DNA of 14,794 bases, taken from the NCBI GenBank assembly GCA_903821905.1, contig CAIJMQ010000040.1:1-14794 (forward strand), in the 5' to 3' direction. The position numbers were made by a program, and so were the translations under genes. The notes beneath the pieces are model-generated. The model saw only the letters and a list, made by a program, of their open reading frames with translations. It was not told the origin of the DNA and did not search any database. Positions 3,338-14,765 of this stretch are shown piece by piece; the stretch's first letter is position 1; every line of letters begins with the position of its first letter. The stretch comes from an uncultured bacterium. GTDB taxonomy: Bacteria; CAIJMQ01.

Positions 3338-4267
3338 ATGAAGAAATTTCTTATAGTGATAGGGATAATAGTCATTTTTTTAGTGTGTATTACGATTTTA
3401 AAAAATCTTATTATCAAATCCGTGGTAACAAAAGTTGCTTCTGGAGTCATAGGAGCGCCGGTGCATATAGATAGTTTTTCATTGAATATTTTAAGTTCGA
3501 CTATATATATGTCCGGATTTAAAATCTTTAACCCCAGCGGTTTTCCGGAAGGCATACTGGTATCTTGCCCCAAAATAAAAATTATATATGACCGTGCTAC
3601 CTTATTTAAGCAGAAACGTCACTTCTTACTTGTAGAGATTGAATTAAAAGAGATGGGACTTACCAAAAATAAAGAAGGAAAACTCAACGTGGATTCATTA
3701 AAGATAGTTCAGCAATCAAAGTCTTCTGAGTTTATCCCTATGCAAATTGATTTACTTACCTTAAGCATTGGCAAGATTGTTTATAAGGACTACACTGTTA
3801 GCACGGAGCCCAGCGTAAGAGTCTACGATGTTAATAAACAAAAAAGCTATAAGGGTATTCCCAGTGCTGAGCAGTTGGCTTTACTTGTACTTACAGAGCC
3901 CATGAAGGATGCAGCGATAAAAAGTGCCGAGATCTATGGGGTTGCTATTGTTTCTGGTGTGGCTGTGCTGCCGGTTGCCGTAGTGGCAATGTTTATAGGT
4001 AAAGATAGTGTGCAGGGAATCAGTGACGCAAGTTTTGAACATGTGTATGAAGTGAGTCTTGAGGTGGTAGGGCGTATGGGGAAGATTACGAAACAGGATG
4101 CTCCCAATGGGGTAATTAAAGCCAATATAAATGGAGCGTGGGTATCACTTCAACTAAGGAAGAAAGAAGATAATAAGACCGAAATAACAATTTCTGCACG
4201 CAAATATATGTTTCCTAAACCAGAAATTGCAGGGGGGGTTTTGTATCAAATATCTGATAAGCTGTAA
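3338..4267 (+). CDS. AsmA-like membrane-anchored protein with DUF3568-like C-terminal domain
   Basis: A 309-residue protein. Residues 4-21 form an N-terminal membrane anchor. Residues about 28-153 look like the AsmA/DUF748 beginning: helix, then GAPVHIDSFSLNILSSTIYM, FKIFNPSGFPEG, KIKIIYDRATLF and GKLNVDSLKIV. This family shapes or bridges the outer membrane and is anchored in the inner membrane. A second hydrophobic stretch lies at about 200-221. It is followed by a domain at about 235-305 (VYEVSLEVVGRMG, NGVIKANINGAWVSLQL, TEITISARKY) resembling DUF3568, normally a separate short lipoprotein. The start is the ATG at 3338 with GTGAGGTG directly upstream; a GTG at 3332 lies inside that SD. 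The domain fusion is an inference from pattern; the AsmA-like part is more certain. Confidence 0.75.
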   Translation: MKKFLIVIGIIVIFLVCITILKNLIIKSVVTKVASGVIGAPVHIDSFSLNILSSTIYMSGFKIFNPSGFPEGILVSCPKIKIIYDRATLFKQKRHFLLVEIELKEMGLTKNKEGKLNVDSLKIVQQSKSSEFIPMQIDLLTLSIGKIVYKDYTVSTEPSVRVYDVNKQKSYKGIPSAEQLALLVLTEPMKDAAIKSAEIYGVAIVSGVAVLPVAVVAMFIGKDSVQGISDASFEHVYEVSLEVVGRMGKITKQDAPNGVIKANINGAWVSLQLRKKEDNKTEITISARKYMFPKPEIAGGVLYQISDKL

Positions 4268-4358
4268 TAATAAATAGCGTTAAAGAAAAATTGTAAAATT
4301 GCACCGAATCTCCAGAAGAGTCAGATTAAACTTATGTGAGATTTATTGTAATATATCC

Positions 4359-5063
4359 ATGTGTCGAAATTGTGCCAATCCAAGTGAAAAAGAAAAACAA
4401 ACTCTAAATTTAATGGGATTTACTCTTATAGAATTGTTGGTAGTAATTAGTATTATTGGTATTTTAGCTGCGTTACTATTACCTGCTCTGTCTACAGCAC
4501 GTCAAGAAGCGCAAAAAATAGTATGTATCTCAAATCTCCGTCAAATTGGTAATACCCTTGTAATTTACACTAACGATTATAATGGAGTATGTCCGTTTGC
4601 TTCAGGGGAGATTAGATGGGGTCAAACGGATGCAGATTATGGAACTCCTGGTTGGATGGAACAGCTATATGACTATGTAAATGATAAAAAATTATATTCT
4701 TGTCCTGCCAATAGGGAATTCAGGGAATACAGTTATTTTTTAGGTGTGAGGGCTGCTTATAAAGAAGCAAATGATAGTTTTGCATCGGTTAGAATAGGTA
4801 GAATCATGTACTCCAGTGCTTTTGTTTTATCAGGTGATACGACGCGAGATGGTAACGCCCCAACCAATTTTAATTATTATGATTGCGATAAAGATGACTA
4901 CACACAAAACTGTGTAGGTGGAGTTGGTGCGGTTTGGACAGGATGGAAAGTTCATATGAGAGGACAAAATATTCTTTTTGCTGACGGTCATGTAGAATGG
5001 GTTCAAAATTATGTCGAAAGCAAGATGACTTTTCGTTATAATGAGTTGAGCGGATGGGAATGA
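4359..5063 (+). CDS. Prepilin-type protein with H-X9-DG C-terminal motif (DUF1559-like)
   Basis: A 234-residue protein when started at the ATG at 4359. The class III signal is [19 protein letters not shown]: cleavage by prepilin peptidase after Gly20 leaves Phe1, with Glu5 in place, followed by the hydrophobic helix. The C-terminal part carries exactly H-X9-DG ([17 protein letters not shown]), typical of the large G-pseudopilin-like families of Planctomycetes, Lentisphaerae and relatives. Their genomes hold many such genes, and the products are thought to be surface or type II secretion-like pseudopilins. The start is uncertain: no good SD is seen, the frame stays open up to a TTG at 4299, and an ATG at 4413 would leave a leader of only two residues. 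The leader contains CRNC. No pilus assembly genes are close. Confidence 0.88.
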
Positions 5064-7242: not shown

Positions 7243-7635
7243 TTATAATCCACTTATAGTTATAAGTCCTTCATTACTTAGGAAAATATTGATTCCTGAT
7301 GCATCTCCGGATCCTGCAACTGTAGCGTTAAAAGTAGCATTGTCTTCTGTTCCTATTGCATTAATAATCGGAGCTGTGTTGAAATATTTGTTGTTATTTA
7401 TATCTATATCTCCGCTTATATCCCCCCAATTGGAAGTATATTTATAATGCTCCGAGAAATATATTCTTTCAATTGTTTTTATGGAACCAATTAATGAATA
7501 ACCTTCAGTAGCCATTGCTTTTTTTACATTCTGTCTAAAAATAGGGACTGCTAAAGCTGTTAAAATTCCTACTATCATTACCGTCACAATAAGTTCTATG
7601 AGAGTAAACCCTTTTTCACGGATAATTTTATTCAT
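7243..7635 (-). CDS. Type IV pilin-like protein
   Basis: A 130-residue protein with a type III signal: the short basic leader MNKIIREKG is cut before FTLIELIVTVMIVGILTALAVP, with Glu at mature position 5. The N-terminal helix is followed by AMATEGYSLIGSIKTIERIYFSEH and a small soluble head without a cysteine pair. This pattern, with a Y-F-x-E-H turn, is common among minor pilins and pseudopilins. It would be exported, cleaved by prepilin peptidase and assembled into a type IV pilus or type II secretion pseudopilus; which one cannot be told from here. It is convergent with dapL, 13 bases between stops, and stands alone with no assembly genes in the window. A strong promoter directly upstream suggests a leaderless mRNA. 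No SD is seen. Confidence 0.92.
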   Translation of the reverse strand: MNKIIREKGFTLIELIVTVMIVGILTALAVPIFRQNVKKAMATEGYSLIGSIKTIERIYFSEHYKYTSNWGDISGDIDINNNKYFNTAPIINAIGTEDNATFNATVAGSGDASGINIFLSNEGLITISGL

Positions 7636-11208: not shown

Positions 11209-11227
11209 TTAGAAATTATATTTCTAA
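11209..11227 (+). promoter_or_regulatory. 19-bp palindrome upstream of araF, candidate operator
   Basis: TTAGAAAT, centre TAT, ATTTCTAA: perfect 8-base arms, ending eight bases before the araF SD. It could be the binding site of a sugar-responsive regulator or a small mRNA hairpin limiting araF translation. No regulator gene is in the window. Confidence 0.4.
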
Positions 11228-11247: not shown

Positions 11248-12246
11248 ATGAAGTTAGTTAAGATAGCATGTTTTATTCTTTTGTTGTTTGTTCTGATAGC
11301 TAATGGGTATTCAGCTGAACAAAAAGTCAAGCTGGGTTTTCTTGTAAAACAACCCGAAGAACTTTGGTTCCAGAATGAATGGAAGTTTGCCCAGAAGTTC
11401 GCTGATGAAGTTGGTATAGACTTAATAAAAATCGGCACTACTGATGGCGAAAAAGTTATGACAGCTATAGACAACCTGGCAACTCAGAAGGTTCAGGGCT
11501 TTGTTATTTGTACTCCGGATGTTCGACTTGGACCTGCTATTATTAAGAAAGCCAATTCCAAGAATTTGAAAGTTTTCACAGTGGATGACAGATTTGTTGG
11601 CGCAGATGGCAATCCTGTGGAAGATGTCCCTTATATGGGAATTTCTTCAACACAGATTGGTTTTGATATAGGCAAGGCATGTTACGAGGAAGCAAAGAAG
11701 CGCGGTTGGAATATGAATGAAACCGGTGCAATGGTTGTTACTCACGATGAATTGGAAACAATTAAACAGAGAACCGATGCGGAGAAAGATGCATTAATTA
11801 AAGCTGGTTTCCCTGCAAATAATATTTTTACCGCAGTTAACAAAACATTAGATGTACCCGGTGGAATGGATGGAGCTAATGTTACTTTAACACAAAATCC
11901 TACTATTAAAAAATGGCTGGTTGCAGGTGGAAATGAAGAATCAGTTATCGGCGCTGTGCGCGCTCTTGAAGGCAAAGGTTTTGATGGGAATACAACAATC
12001 GGTATCGGCCTTGGTGCTGGCGCTGGTTTGCTCGAATTTAAGAAACCTGGCGTAAATGGTTTCTTTGCTACAAGCGCTATCAGTCCTTATAGACATGGCT
12101 ATGAAACAACTAAATTACTTTATGAATGGGTAAAAGATGGGAAGAAACCTCCTATGAAGACTTTAACCGCTGGTTATATTGTAACCCGTGAGACTTATGT
12201 TAAGACTATGACTGAACTTGGATTAGCTGATTCACTTCCTAAATAA
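11248..12246 (+). CDS. araF: AraF-type periplasmic sugar-binding protein
   Basis: A 332-residue ABC-transporter binding protein. Residues 1-23 are a cleavable signal peptide (NGYSA before EQ) without a lipobox, so the mature protein is periplasmic. From KLGFLVKQPEELWFQ onward it aligns with E. coli AraF without gaps at a constant offset of 24. Retained pocket residues: Lys34, Glu38, Trp40, Asp113/Asp114, Arg175 and Asn229 (AraF 10, 14, 16, 89/90, 151, 205). Changed: Met108 to Ile132, Asn232 to Gly256, Asp235 to Ala259, Pro254 to Ile278. So it is clearly of this family, but its ligand may not be L-arabinose; the alignment is from memory. The start at 11248 is set by AAAGGAGG (11235-11242); an ATG at 11230 precedes that SD. 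It is first in an araFGH order. Confidence 0.92.
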   Translation: MKLVKIACFILLLFVLIANGYSAEQKVKLGFLVKQPEELWFQNEWKFAQKFADEVGIDLIKIGTTDGEKVMTAIDNLATQKVQGFVICTPDVRLGPAIIKKANSKNLKVFTVDDRFVGADGNPVEDVPYMGISSTQIGFDIGKACYEEAKKRGWNMNETGAMVVTHDELETIKQRTDAEKDALIKAGFPANNIFTAVNKTLDVPGGMDGANVTLTQNPTIKKWLVAGGNEESVIGAVRALEGKGFDGNTTIGIGLGAGAGLLEFKKPGVNGFFATSAISPYRHGYETTKLLYEWVKDGKKPPMKTLTAGYIVTRETYVKTMTELGLADSLPK

Positions 12247-12270: not shown

Positions 12271-13761
12271 ATGCCGATAAGCTATCTTCAATTTGAAGGA
12301 ATAACAAAGAATTTCCCAGGTGTTTTAGCTCTTAATGATATTAATTTTGGTGTTGAAGAAGGAACTGTGCATGCATTAGTGGGAGAAAATGGCGCAGGGA
12401 AATCAACACTATTAAAAATATTAAGCGGCCTTTATCAGCCTGACAAAGGCATTATCCGATTGAACGGACAATCCCAAGTTTTCCAATCAACTTCTGATGC
12501 TATAAAAGCTGGAATTGCTGTAATTTACCAAGAATTAAATTTAGTTCCGGAAATGACTGTGGCTGAAAATCTCTTGTTGGGACATATGCCTGAAGAATTT
12601 GGTTTTATTAATAAAAAAGGAATGCGAGATAAGGCTATAAAACAATTAGCAATTTTAGAAGAGAATATAGACCCTTCCGCAAAAGTTGGGACACTTTCGA
12701 TTGCTCAACGGCAAATGTTGGAAATTGCTAAAGCACTCATTAGAGATGCCAAAGTCATTGCTTTCGATGAACCAACCAGCAGTTTATCGGATAGAGAAGT
12801 GCAAAAACTTTTTGAAATTATCAATGAATTGAAACGACAAGACAGGGTTATACTTTATGTTTCCCATCGATTGAAAGAAATTTTCGGGGTTTGTGATATG
12901 GTAACGGTATTCCGTGACGGAGTTAAAGTTGAAACCTTTAATGATACTAAAAAGATTTCACAAGATATTCTAATAAATAGAATGGTAGGTCGTTCCATAA
13001 CAGATATTTATAACTATTCAATCCATACTCACGGCGAACCCATACTTGAAGTAGAAGATTTAATGGGACATGGATTATCGGAGCCGGTTAATTTTTCTGT
13101 TTCCAAGGGAGAGGTTTTAGGTATATTTGGTCTTGTAGGAGCAGGAAGAACAGAGCTTTTAAAGCTGATTTATGGAGCAATAAAATCAAAAACTGGGAAA
13201 ATAAAGTTGCATAGTAAAGAGATTAAAATCGATAACCCATCGCAGGCAATACAAAATGGAATAGTGTACTGTCCGGAAGACCGAAAAAAAGAAGGTATAA
13301 TCGCTATACGTTCAGTTAAGGAAAATATCAATATTAGCATACGTCGATTAATAGCTAGATTGGGTTTCATAAATGAAAAGAAAGACAATGAAAATGCTAA
13401 GCAGTTTGTTGAAAAGCTCAATATTAAGACACCCTCAATTAATAGATTGGCAAGAGACCTTTCTGGCGGTAATCAGCAAAAAGTTATTTTAGCGCGTTGG
13501 CTCTCCGAGAAGATTAAAGTTATTCTCTTTGATGAACCAACACGAGGTATTGATGTAGGAGCAAAATCTGAAATCTATTCAATAATTTCTCAACTAGCTC
13601 ATCAGGGCATAGGAATAGTAGTTGTATCGAGCGAATTGCCGGAAATCTTGGGTATCTCTGATAGAATTATCGTGATGAGACAAGGTAAAATGCATACATC
13701 TCTAAAACATGACGAGGCTACAGAAGAAAAATTGCTCAGGTTAGCATTACCAGTTGTTTAA
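12271..13761 (+). CDS. araG: AraG-type sugar ABC transporter, dual ATP-binding protein
   Basis: A 496-residue cytoplasmic ATPase with two tandem nucleotide-binding halves, as in the AraG/RbsA/MglA group that drives import of pentoses and hexoses. First half: Walker A GENGAGKST (38-46), Q-loop at Gln87, a degenerate signature (LSIAQRQ, 142-148) and Walker B FDEPTSSL (165-172). Second half: a degenerate P-loop GLVGAGRTE (287-295), a full signature LSGGNQQ (397-402) and Walker B FDEPTRGID (420-428). The asymmetric degeneration of one P-loop and one signature is normal for this group. It follows araF by 24 bases and precedes the permease by 23. No SD is visible before the ATG, so initiation may depend on upstream translation. 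Name based on the neighbours and the family, since RbsA and MglA are very similar. Confidence 0.94.
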   Translation: MPISYLQFEGITKNFPGVLALNDINFGVEEGTVHALVGENGAGKSTLLKILSGLYQPDKGIIRLNGQSQVFQSTSDAIKAGIAVIYQELNLVPEMTVAENLLLGHMPEEFGFINKKGMRDKAIKQLAILEENIDPSAKVGTLSIAQRQMLEIAKALIRDAKVIAFDEPTSSLSDREVQKLFEIINELKRQDRVILYVSHRLKEIFGVCDMVTVFRDGVKVETFNDTKKISQDILINRMVGRSITDIYNYSIHTHGEPILEVEDLMGHGLSEPVNFSVSKGEVLGIFGLVGAGRTELLKLIYGAIKSKTGKIKLHSKEIKIDNPSQAIQNGIVYCPEDRKKEGIIAIRSVKENINISIRRLIARLGFINEKKDNENAKQFVEKLNIKTPSINRLARDLSGGNQQKVILARWLSEKIKVILFDEPTRGIDVGAKSEIYSIISQLAHQGIGIVVVSSELPEILGISDRIIVMRQGKMHTSLKHDEATEEKLLRLALPVV

Positions 13762-13784: not shown

Positions 13785-14765
13785 ATGATTACAAATGTGA
13801 GTAAAAGCATAACAGATTCAAAAGTAAAACCTGTATATCAAACTGTTTGGGATAACGCGAGTATATTGGTTATTTATATTATTATGTTCATTGTCCTATC
13901 TTTAACTGTTCCCTACTTTTTCAGCTGGGATAATATGATAGGCATATCTCTTGCAATATCTACAGTCGGGCCAGTTGCCTGTACTATGCTATTTTGTTTA
14001 GCATCAGGTGATTTTGACCTTTCCGTTGGGGCAGTTGTGGCTTTTTCTGGAGTCTTCGCCGCCGTAATGATTAGGGAAACCGGGAATGTTTTTATAGGCG
14101 GTATGTTCGGTATCATTGCCGGCGGACTAGTAGGTTTTTTAAATGGAGTGATTATAGCTAAACTTAAGATCAATGCGCTAATAACCACTCTTGCCACGAT
14201 GCAGATTGTCCGAGGACTTTGTTTTATCATTTCCAATGGAATAGCGGTTGGAATTACAAATGATAAGTTTTATGTTATTGGCAACAATGATTTTGCAGGA
14301 GTACCGATACCGGTATGGATTATGATTGCTTGTTTTGTTGTTTTTGCCATATTACTTAATAGAACAGTATATGGACGCAACACATTGGCAATGGGTGGAA
14401 ATAAAGAAGCAGCTAAACTTGCCGGTATAAATGTTGACAAAATTAAGATTATTATTTTTATGGTTCAGGGTTTAGTTGCCGGTACTGTTGGTATTGTACT
14501 TGCTTCCAGAATGACTAGCGGACAGCCAAACACATCTCTGGGTTTTGAGTTAGATGTTATTTCTGCTTGCGTATTAGGCGGAGTATCTCTTTCAGGAGGT
14601 ATCGGCACAATACTTGGAGTTATTGTTGGTGTGATTATTATGGGAACCGTACAGAATGCAATGAATCTTTTAAATATTCCAACATTTTATCAATATGTAG
14701 TAAGAGGCATTATTTTACTTCTTGCTGTTCTCTTTGACCAATTAAAACAGAGAAGAACTGCATAA
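13785..14765 (+). CDS. araH: AraH-type sugar ABC transporter permease
   Basis: A 326-residue inner-membrane permease with roughly eight to ten hydrophobic helices between residues 25 and 318, as usual for the AraH/RbsC family. It forms the channel that accepts sugar from the binding protein and is powered by the dual ATPase. Stretches such as MLFCLASGDFDLSVG, IAKLKINALITTLATMQIVR, RNTLAMGGNKEAAKLAG, LASRMTSGQPNTS and ISACVLGGVSLSGGIG are very close to E. coli AraH (closer than to RbsC), which supports the name. The length is normal and the frame intact. No SD is seen before the ATG at 13785; MITNVSKSITDSKVK would be a short cytoplasmic N-terminus. It is the last gene of the GH2-araFGH run; the 29 bases after it hold nothing recognisable. 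Confidence 0.95.
   Translation: MITNVSKSITDSKVKPVYQTVWDNASILVIYIIMFIVLSLTVPYFFSWDNMIGISLAISTVGPVACTMLFCLASGDFDLSVGAVVAFSGVFAAVMIRETGNVFIGGMFGIIAGGLVGFLNGVIIAKLKINALITTLATMQIVRGLCFIISNGIAVGITNDKFYVIGNNDFAGVPIPVWIMIACFVVFAILLNRTVYGRNTLAMGGNKEAAKLAGINVDKIKIIIFMVQGLVAGTVGIVLASRMTSGQPNTSLGFELDVISACVLGGVSLSGGIGTILGVIVGVIIMGTVQNAMNLLNIPTFYQYVVRGIILLLAVLFDQLKQRRTA

Follow-up and report, generated by a model that had tools for sequence, protein, structure and literature searches.

Which sugar is carried by an ABC importer whose binding protein belongs to the AraF family but does not have the E. coli AraF pocket? The question is raised by a run of genes in a 14,794-nucleotide stretch of DNA from an uncultured bacterium (contig CAIJMQ010000040.1), referred to below as the window. 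The original prediction, made from the letters of the window, was that its AraF-like protein had lost several L-arabinose pocket residues and that the transporter may import galactose, another hexose or a modified sugar. The protein was compared with AraF structures and with its relatives, and the gene context of the relatives was examined.

The araF-like gene and its surroundings

The araF-like open reading frame is intact and full-length, has a strong ribosome site (GGAGGATGTTATG) and encodes a signal-like segment at the N-terminus. The protein matches E. coli AraF (PDB accession numbers 6abp, 1abe and 1apb) with an E value of ~ 1e-85 and 41–44% sequence identity, compared with 5e-7 for the next family after ABP. 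Mature AraF numbering, obtained by subtracting 24 from the residue number of the window protein, is used throughout. As had been claimed, no gap interrupts the alignment across the pocket. The AlphaFold2 model (mean pLDDT 93) superposes on the ABP structures 1apb, 7abp and 5abp with a Z score of 44 and RMSD of 1.4 over 304 residues, far above the Z score of 31 for the next-best fold, which supports the residue register.

The residues shared with E. coli AraF are Lys10, Glu14, Trp16, Phe17, Cys64, Asp89, Asp90, Leu145, Thr147, Arg151 and Asn205. They comprise those listed as kept in the original prediction (Lys10, Glu14, Trp16, Asp89/90, Arg151 and Asn205) and all the core ligand residues of the family (Lys10, Glu14, Asp90, Arg151 and Asn205). 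Asn232 of the E. coli-type arabinose pocket, which contacts the sugar directly, is absent and a glycine is present instead. This exchange and three others, Met108Ile, Asp235Ala and Pro254Ile, had been correctly identified; M107G, M204G, D206E, S207E, G233A, V234G and V258R are to be added. That mutations at positions 108 and 254 alter AraF specificity is borne out by the titles of PDB entries 1apb and 7abp, according to which Pro254Gly (hinge) and Met108Leu change ABP binding and specificity. The window protein is thus a CUT2 substrate-binding protein of the AraF family whose pocket differs in type from that of E. coli AraF.

Table 1 Features of the GH2-araFGH-like region, in window coordinates.
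Feature	Coordinates	Strand	Basis
Predicted secreted GH2 beta-galactosidase, GalA/GalB type, hydrophobic N-terminal segment	8297..11185	+	NCBIfam GalB, GH2 domains, GH2 C5
Perfect 8-bp palindrome TTAGAAAT-TAT-ATTTCTAA, between GH2 and araF	11209..11227	.	Pattern search
araF-like sugar-binding protein gene (AraF-like periplasmic, 332 aa, Glu207/Gly232/Arg258 type)	11248..12246	+	Homology, alignment, model
Ile132 codon, AraF position 108 (Met in E. coli)	11641..11643	+	Alignment
Gly228 codon, AraF position 204 (Met in E. coli)	11929..11931	+	Sole Gly in 61 relatives
Glu231 codon, AraF position 207 (Ser in E. coli), subfamily signature	11938..11940	+	Alignment
Gly256 codon, AraF position 232 (Asn in E. 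coli)	12013..12015	+	Alignment
Ala259 codon, AraF position 235 (Asp in E. coli; Thr/Ser in most of subfamily)	12022..12024	+	Alignment
Ile278 codon, AraF position 254 (Pro in E. coli)	12079..12081	+	Alignment
Arg282 codon, AraF position 258 (Val in E. coli), subfamily signature	12091..12093	+	Alignment
araG-like ABC ATPase gene	12271..13761	+	NCBIfam AraG 756.7 bits, cut-off 689
araH-like permease gene	13785..14765	+	NCBIfam AraH 485.6 bits, cut-off 378

The four genes GH2, araF-like, araG-like and araH-like follow one another on one strand with gaps of 62, 24 and 23 bases, and the window stops just past araH. Their base composition is like that of the remainder of the window. Both AraG and AraH exceed the NCBIfam equivalog cut-offs. 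The GH2 protein passes the NCBIfam GalB model (NF041463) only narrowly, with 916.6 bits against a cut-off of 900; its best solved relatives (5t98, 4ypj and 8q2h) are mostly named beta-galactosidases. The palindrome between GH2 and araF is a possible candidate operator, a weak one given that the pattern, with up to 3 mismatches allowed, occurred in 66 of 200 shuffled windows. Elsewhere, the window encodes a secreted protein in which a Big_5 Ig-like domain is combined with an Ice_binding (DUF3494) domain (1590–2723, + strand) and two proteins that resemble type IV prepilins and carry N-methylation motifs (4299–5063, + strand, and 7243–7635, − strand), the former with a terminal DGHVEW pattern as in DUF1559-like proteins. 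A search of the phage collection gave no match.

Coupled residues at positions 207, 232 and 258

Sixty-one AraF sequences were compared, including the window protein, 33 relatives from genome contigs, plasmid copies and a Proteobacteria sample. Position 232 is Gly in 35 of the 61 and Asn in 26, and the core ligand residues are common to both types. Glu207 occurs in all 35 Gly232 proteins vs 4 of the 26 Asn232 proteins; the corresponding counts are 34/35 vs 2/26 for Arg258 and 34/35 vs 6/26 for Ile108. Among the first 38 sequences the linkage of Glu207 with Gly232 was perfect (Fisher p = 2e-10) and that of Arg258 with Gly232 gave p = 7e-7, both p values being inflated by the kinship of the sequences. 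In the trees, whose deepest split is poorly supported, the Gly232 label takes 1 to 2 changes compared with ~ 11 to 20 for shuffled labels. The window protein carries Glu207, Gly232 and Arg258 together and is grouped with other members of this kind with a support of 98–99, on a long branch (0.88–0.94).

N232G goes beyond chance because it is common to 34 of the 60 other relatives, each time with S207E. On these sequence grounds the exchange is part of a coordinated one, a subfamily signature, rather than mere loss of an arabinose contact, and the view that the pocket had simply lost residues did not hold: Gly232 comes with the gained Glu207 and Arg258. Loss of Pro254 was rejected as a lone diagnostic; Pro254 is found in none of the 35 Gly232 proteins, but position 254 varies in the Asn232 proteins too, being P, L, V or M. 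Ile108 was likewise rejected as weakly informative, since position 108 of the Asn232 proteins is M, I or L. The window protein departs from its subfamily at otherwise conserved positions (F33I, A58V, A185G and D206E), and Gly204 together with Ala235 may make its pocket roomier than that of its kin.

Gene context of the two pocket types

In Proteobacteria, dgoD or dgoK/dgoA adjoins 15 of 16 Gly232 loci vs 1 of 17 Asn232 loci (p = 2.5e-7, on loci that are phylogenetically non-independent). These genes constitute the De Ley-Doudoroff path for D-galactose. The Gly232 dgo clusters often include an aldose 1-epimerase and a dehydrogenase, and none of araA, araB and araD was found beside the 16 proteobacterial Gly232 loci. 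Rhizobial dgoD scores 725 bits compared with a galactonate dehydratase cut-off of 311. Among the Asn232 loci, some adjoin araBAD (L027 and L066), araAB (L118) or galETK with araD (L029). One Asn232 protein, L117, sits inside a galactose cluster; hence residue 232 marks a tendency and not a rule. Presence of AraA or GalK in the whole genome was rejected as a discriminator because it did not differ between the two types.

Three genomes (G607, G676 and G678) contain both pocket types. Their Gly232 copy lies within a dgoK-dgoA-SDR-araFGH-galM cluster, and the second copy has Gln14, Met108, Glu207, Asn232 and Glu235. Beside the Asn232 copies of G678 (L103) and of Caballeronia (L065) lie genes for which the closest solved structures include L-arabinose 1-dehydrogenase and the dehydratase group to which L-arabinonate dehydratase belongs. 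Enzymes of the L-arabinose oxidation type can act on galactose too. The Burkholderiales Asn232 copies are nested in the Glu207 clade, a reversal, and therefore Asn232 appears to have returned where the context turned to arabinose. In this second paralogue (L065, L101, L103 and L105) Gln14 replaces the otherwise invariant Glu14; it shares the AraF family and Glu207 with the window protein but differs from it in Asn232, Met108, Gln14 and Glu235.

Of the named systems, E. coli AraF (1abe, 6abp and 1apb) shares with the window protein the fold, the Lys10/Glu14/Trp16/Asp90/Arg151/Asn205 core and the araFGH gene order, and differs at positions 108, 207, 232, 235, 254 and 258; the window has no arabinose genes near the araF-like gene. 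AraFGH systems on plasmids of Sinorhizobium, Rhizobium, Shinella and Aminobacter, where they adjoin dgoD and are annotated "arabinose ABC transporter", share its pocket type. Their AraF is 47–50% identical to the window protein and has the same Glu207, Gly232, Arg258, Ile108 and Ile254, but Ser235 and Leu204 where the window protein has Ala235 and Gly204, and their neighbour is a galactonate dehydratase instead of a GH2 enzyme. The Caulobacter locus L028, with dgoA and dgoK nearby, resembles the window in combining Gly232 and Glu207 with an adjoining GH2 enzyme of the GalA/GalB type (GalA beta-galactosidase, 1141 bits, cut-off 900). It differs in that residue 258 is Gln and the GH2 gene is downstream rather than upstream. 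Two further candidates were set aside: the R. leguminosarum D-galactose sensor RL2376 (YtfQ-like, not AraF) and SMb20484 (the cluster described around it does not match). S. meliloti araA SMb20895, of a known arabinose operon, may or may not be the L049 gene; gbpR and araDEF, described as its neighbours, are not those seen at L049.

No dgo cluster was seen beside the nearest relatives of the window protein, which are from Bacillota, Gemmatimonadota and Armatimonadota. URO-D family genes flank six Gly232 araFGH loci of spirochaetes and Bacillota (L003, L006, L008, L015, L017 and L019), of which L003 and L008 are near relatives of the window protein; L008 has up to three such genes together with an FGGY kinase. 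For the one URO-D gene compared with solved structures, the only solved relative was a methylcobalamin:CoM methyltransferase. This link may signal another sugar in the spirochaete and Bacillota branches. AraF is rare in Spirochaetota, with only 2 matches in a sample of 296 genomes. A GH123 enzyme is encoded next to one Armatimonadota relative. Other observations at the relatives' loci include a divergent pair of regulatory genes upstream of araF in L012, for a response regulator of the sigma-54 activator type and for a histidine kinase with an N-terminal ABC-ATPase domain, araG-like matches at the equivalent upstream place in L013, L015 and L019, an Armatimonadetes AraF with an in-frame stop near codon 90 (L002, ~ 3383–4291; a pseudogene or an assembly error) and, in a Phycisphaerae genome, a gene for a PFL-like glycyl-radical enzyme close to an araF of the Gly232 type (L023, 5528–7900, − strand).

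Substrate of the importer and of the subfamily

The window encodes a CUT2 ABC importer of the AraFGH type that probably prefers D-galactose, or a hexose like it, and acts together with an exported beta-galactosidase. This reading is drawn from the galactose genes adjoining the proteobacterial Gly232 loci and the beta-galactosidase gene directly upstream in the window. The galactose or other-hexose direction of the original prediction is thereby retained, on the relatives' gene context and the adjacent beta-galactosidase; its reasoning from lost residues, Pro254 and Ile108 is not. E. coli AraF binds D-galactose with an affinity similar to that for L-arabinose, so that galactose binding would be no departure from the AraF family. 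The pocket appears to have been rebuilt as a unit (Asn232 to Gly, Ser/Asn207 to Glu, 258 to Arg, Met108 to Ile and Asp235 to Thr, Ser or Ala), with a galacto-configured pyranose presumably held by the unchanged core of Lys10, Glu14, Asp90, Arg151 and Asn205. Glu207 and Arg258 would stand in for the contacts lost with Asn232, and the room left by Gly232 would take the C5/C6 part of a hexose. The main ligand of the subfamily would accordingly be D-galactose or a close galacto-hexose. In this organism, galactose released by the exported GH2 enzyme would be caught by the AraF-like protein and imported by the AraG- and AraH-like subunits. Counting against this reading are the long branch of the window protein, the lack of dgo clusters beside its nearest relatives, the URO-D genes at several spirochaete and Bacillota loci, the galactose cluster around the Asn232 protein L117, the failure of whole-genome AraA or GalK presence to separate the types, and the galactose enzymes not found in the 84%-complete genome.

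The importer could instead be a broad arabinose, galactose and fucose binder like E. coli AraF, the pocket difference being cosmetic and the physiological sugar the same. The core ligand residues common to both types, the AraG and AraH scores above the equivalog cut-offs and the binding of both sugars by E. coli AraF all fit this explanation, which we nonetheless regard as unlikely: the coupled change at 207, 232 and 258 and the split in gene context, seen even between paralogues of the same genome, argue for a maintained specificity difference, and L-arabinose isomerase was not found in the organism's own 84%-complete genome. That genome (1.3 Mb) contains one araF, and no close araF was found in the nearest six genomes of the same class. 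AraA, GalK, GalT, GalM and DgoK were not found in it, 16% of the genome being missing; an enolase-family match is sub-threshold only, and a xylulokinase is present.

The lack of a detected galactose entry enzyme there could also point to import of a different sugar, such as a modified or methylated galactoside, GalNAc, D-fucose or another deoxyhexose. Gly204, unique among the 61 relatives, and Ala235 are two further small residues in the pocket, and the URO-D genes, one of them methyltransferase-like, and the GH123 enzyme beside relatives point the same way. However, the GH2 enzyme encoded beside araF is of the beta-galactosidase type and does not remove GalNAc or methyl groups by its classification, and no URO-D link is seen up to the end of the window, just after araH; we give this alternative little weight. 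Decay of the gene, with the residue changes reflecting loss of function, is very improbable. The long branch and the four departures at subfamily-conserved positions would be expected of it, but the open reading frame is full-length, the operon intact, the core pocket invariant, the signature complete and the model confidently predicted.

For the family as a whole, it is tentatively proposed that the 207/232/258 module is a natural specificity switch, Glu207-Gly232-Arg258 serving hexoses such as D-galactose and Asn232 serving L-arabinose or both, with the Burkholderiales copies as a reversal. A literature search, with most subscription journals outside its reach, found no paper on a Glu207/Gly232/Arg258 AraF subfamily. 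Mutant-fitness studies reportedly name galactose as the substrate of a Burkholderia sugar ABC transporter; should this be the Gly232 copy, the subfamily substrate is partly known already.

The window protein itself adds one more case to a broad subfamily labelled arabinose-binding in databases, and the only point of wider interest is the use of the signature to predict substrate. ABP is a textbook sugar-recognition protein that also serves as a scaffold in binding-protein design, and the paralogue pairs in single genomes are a ready natural experiment. If the signature reports galactose and not arabinose, the substrate labels given automatically to a large share of AraF, AraG and AraH proteins in spirochaetes, Planctomycetes, Armatimonadetes, rhizobia and Burkholderiales would be wrong. 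If the switch is real, many annotated arabinose ABC transporters would be galactose transporters, and this would be readable from sequence.
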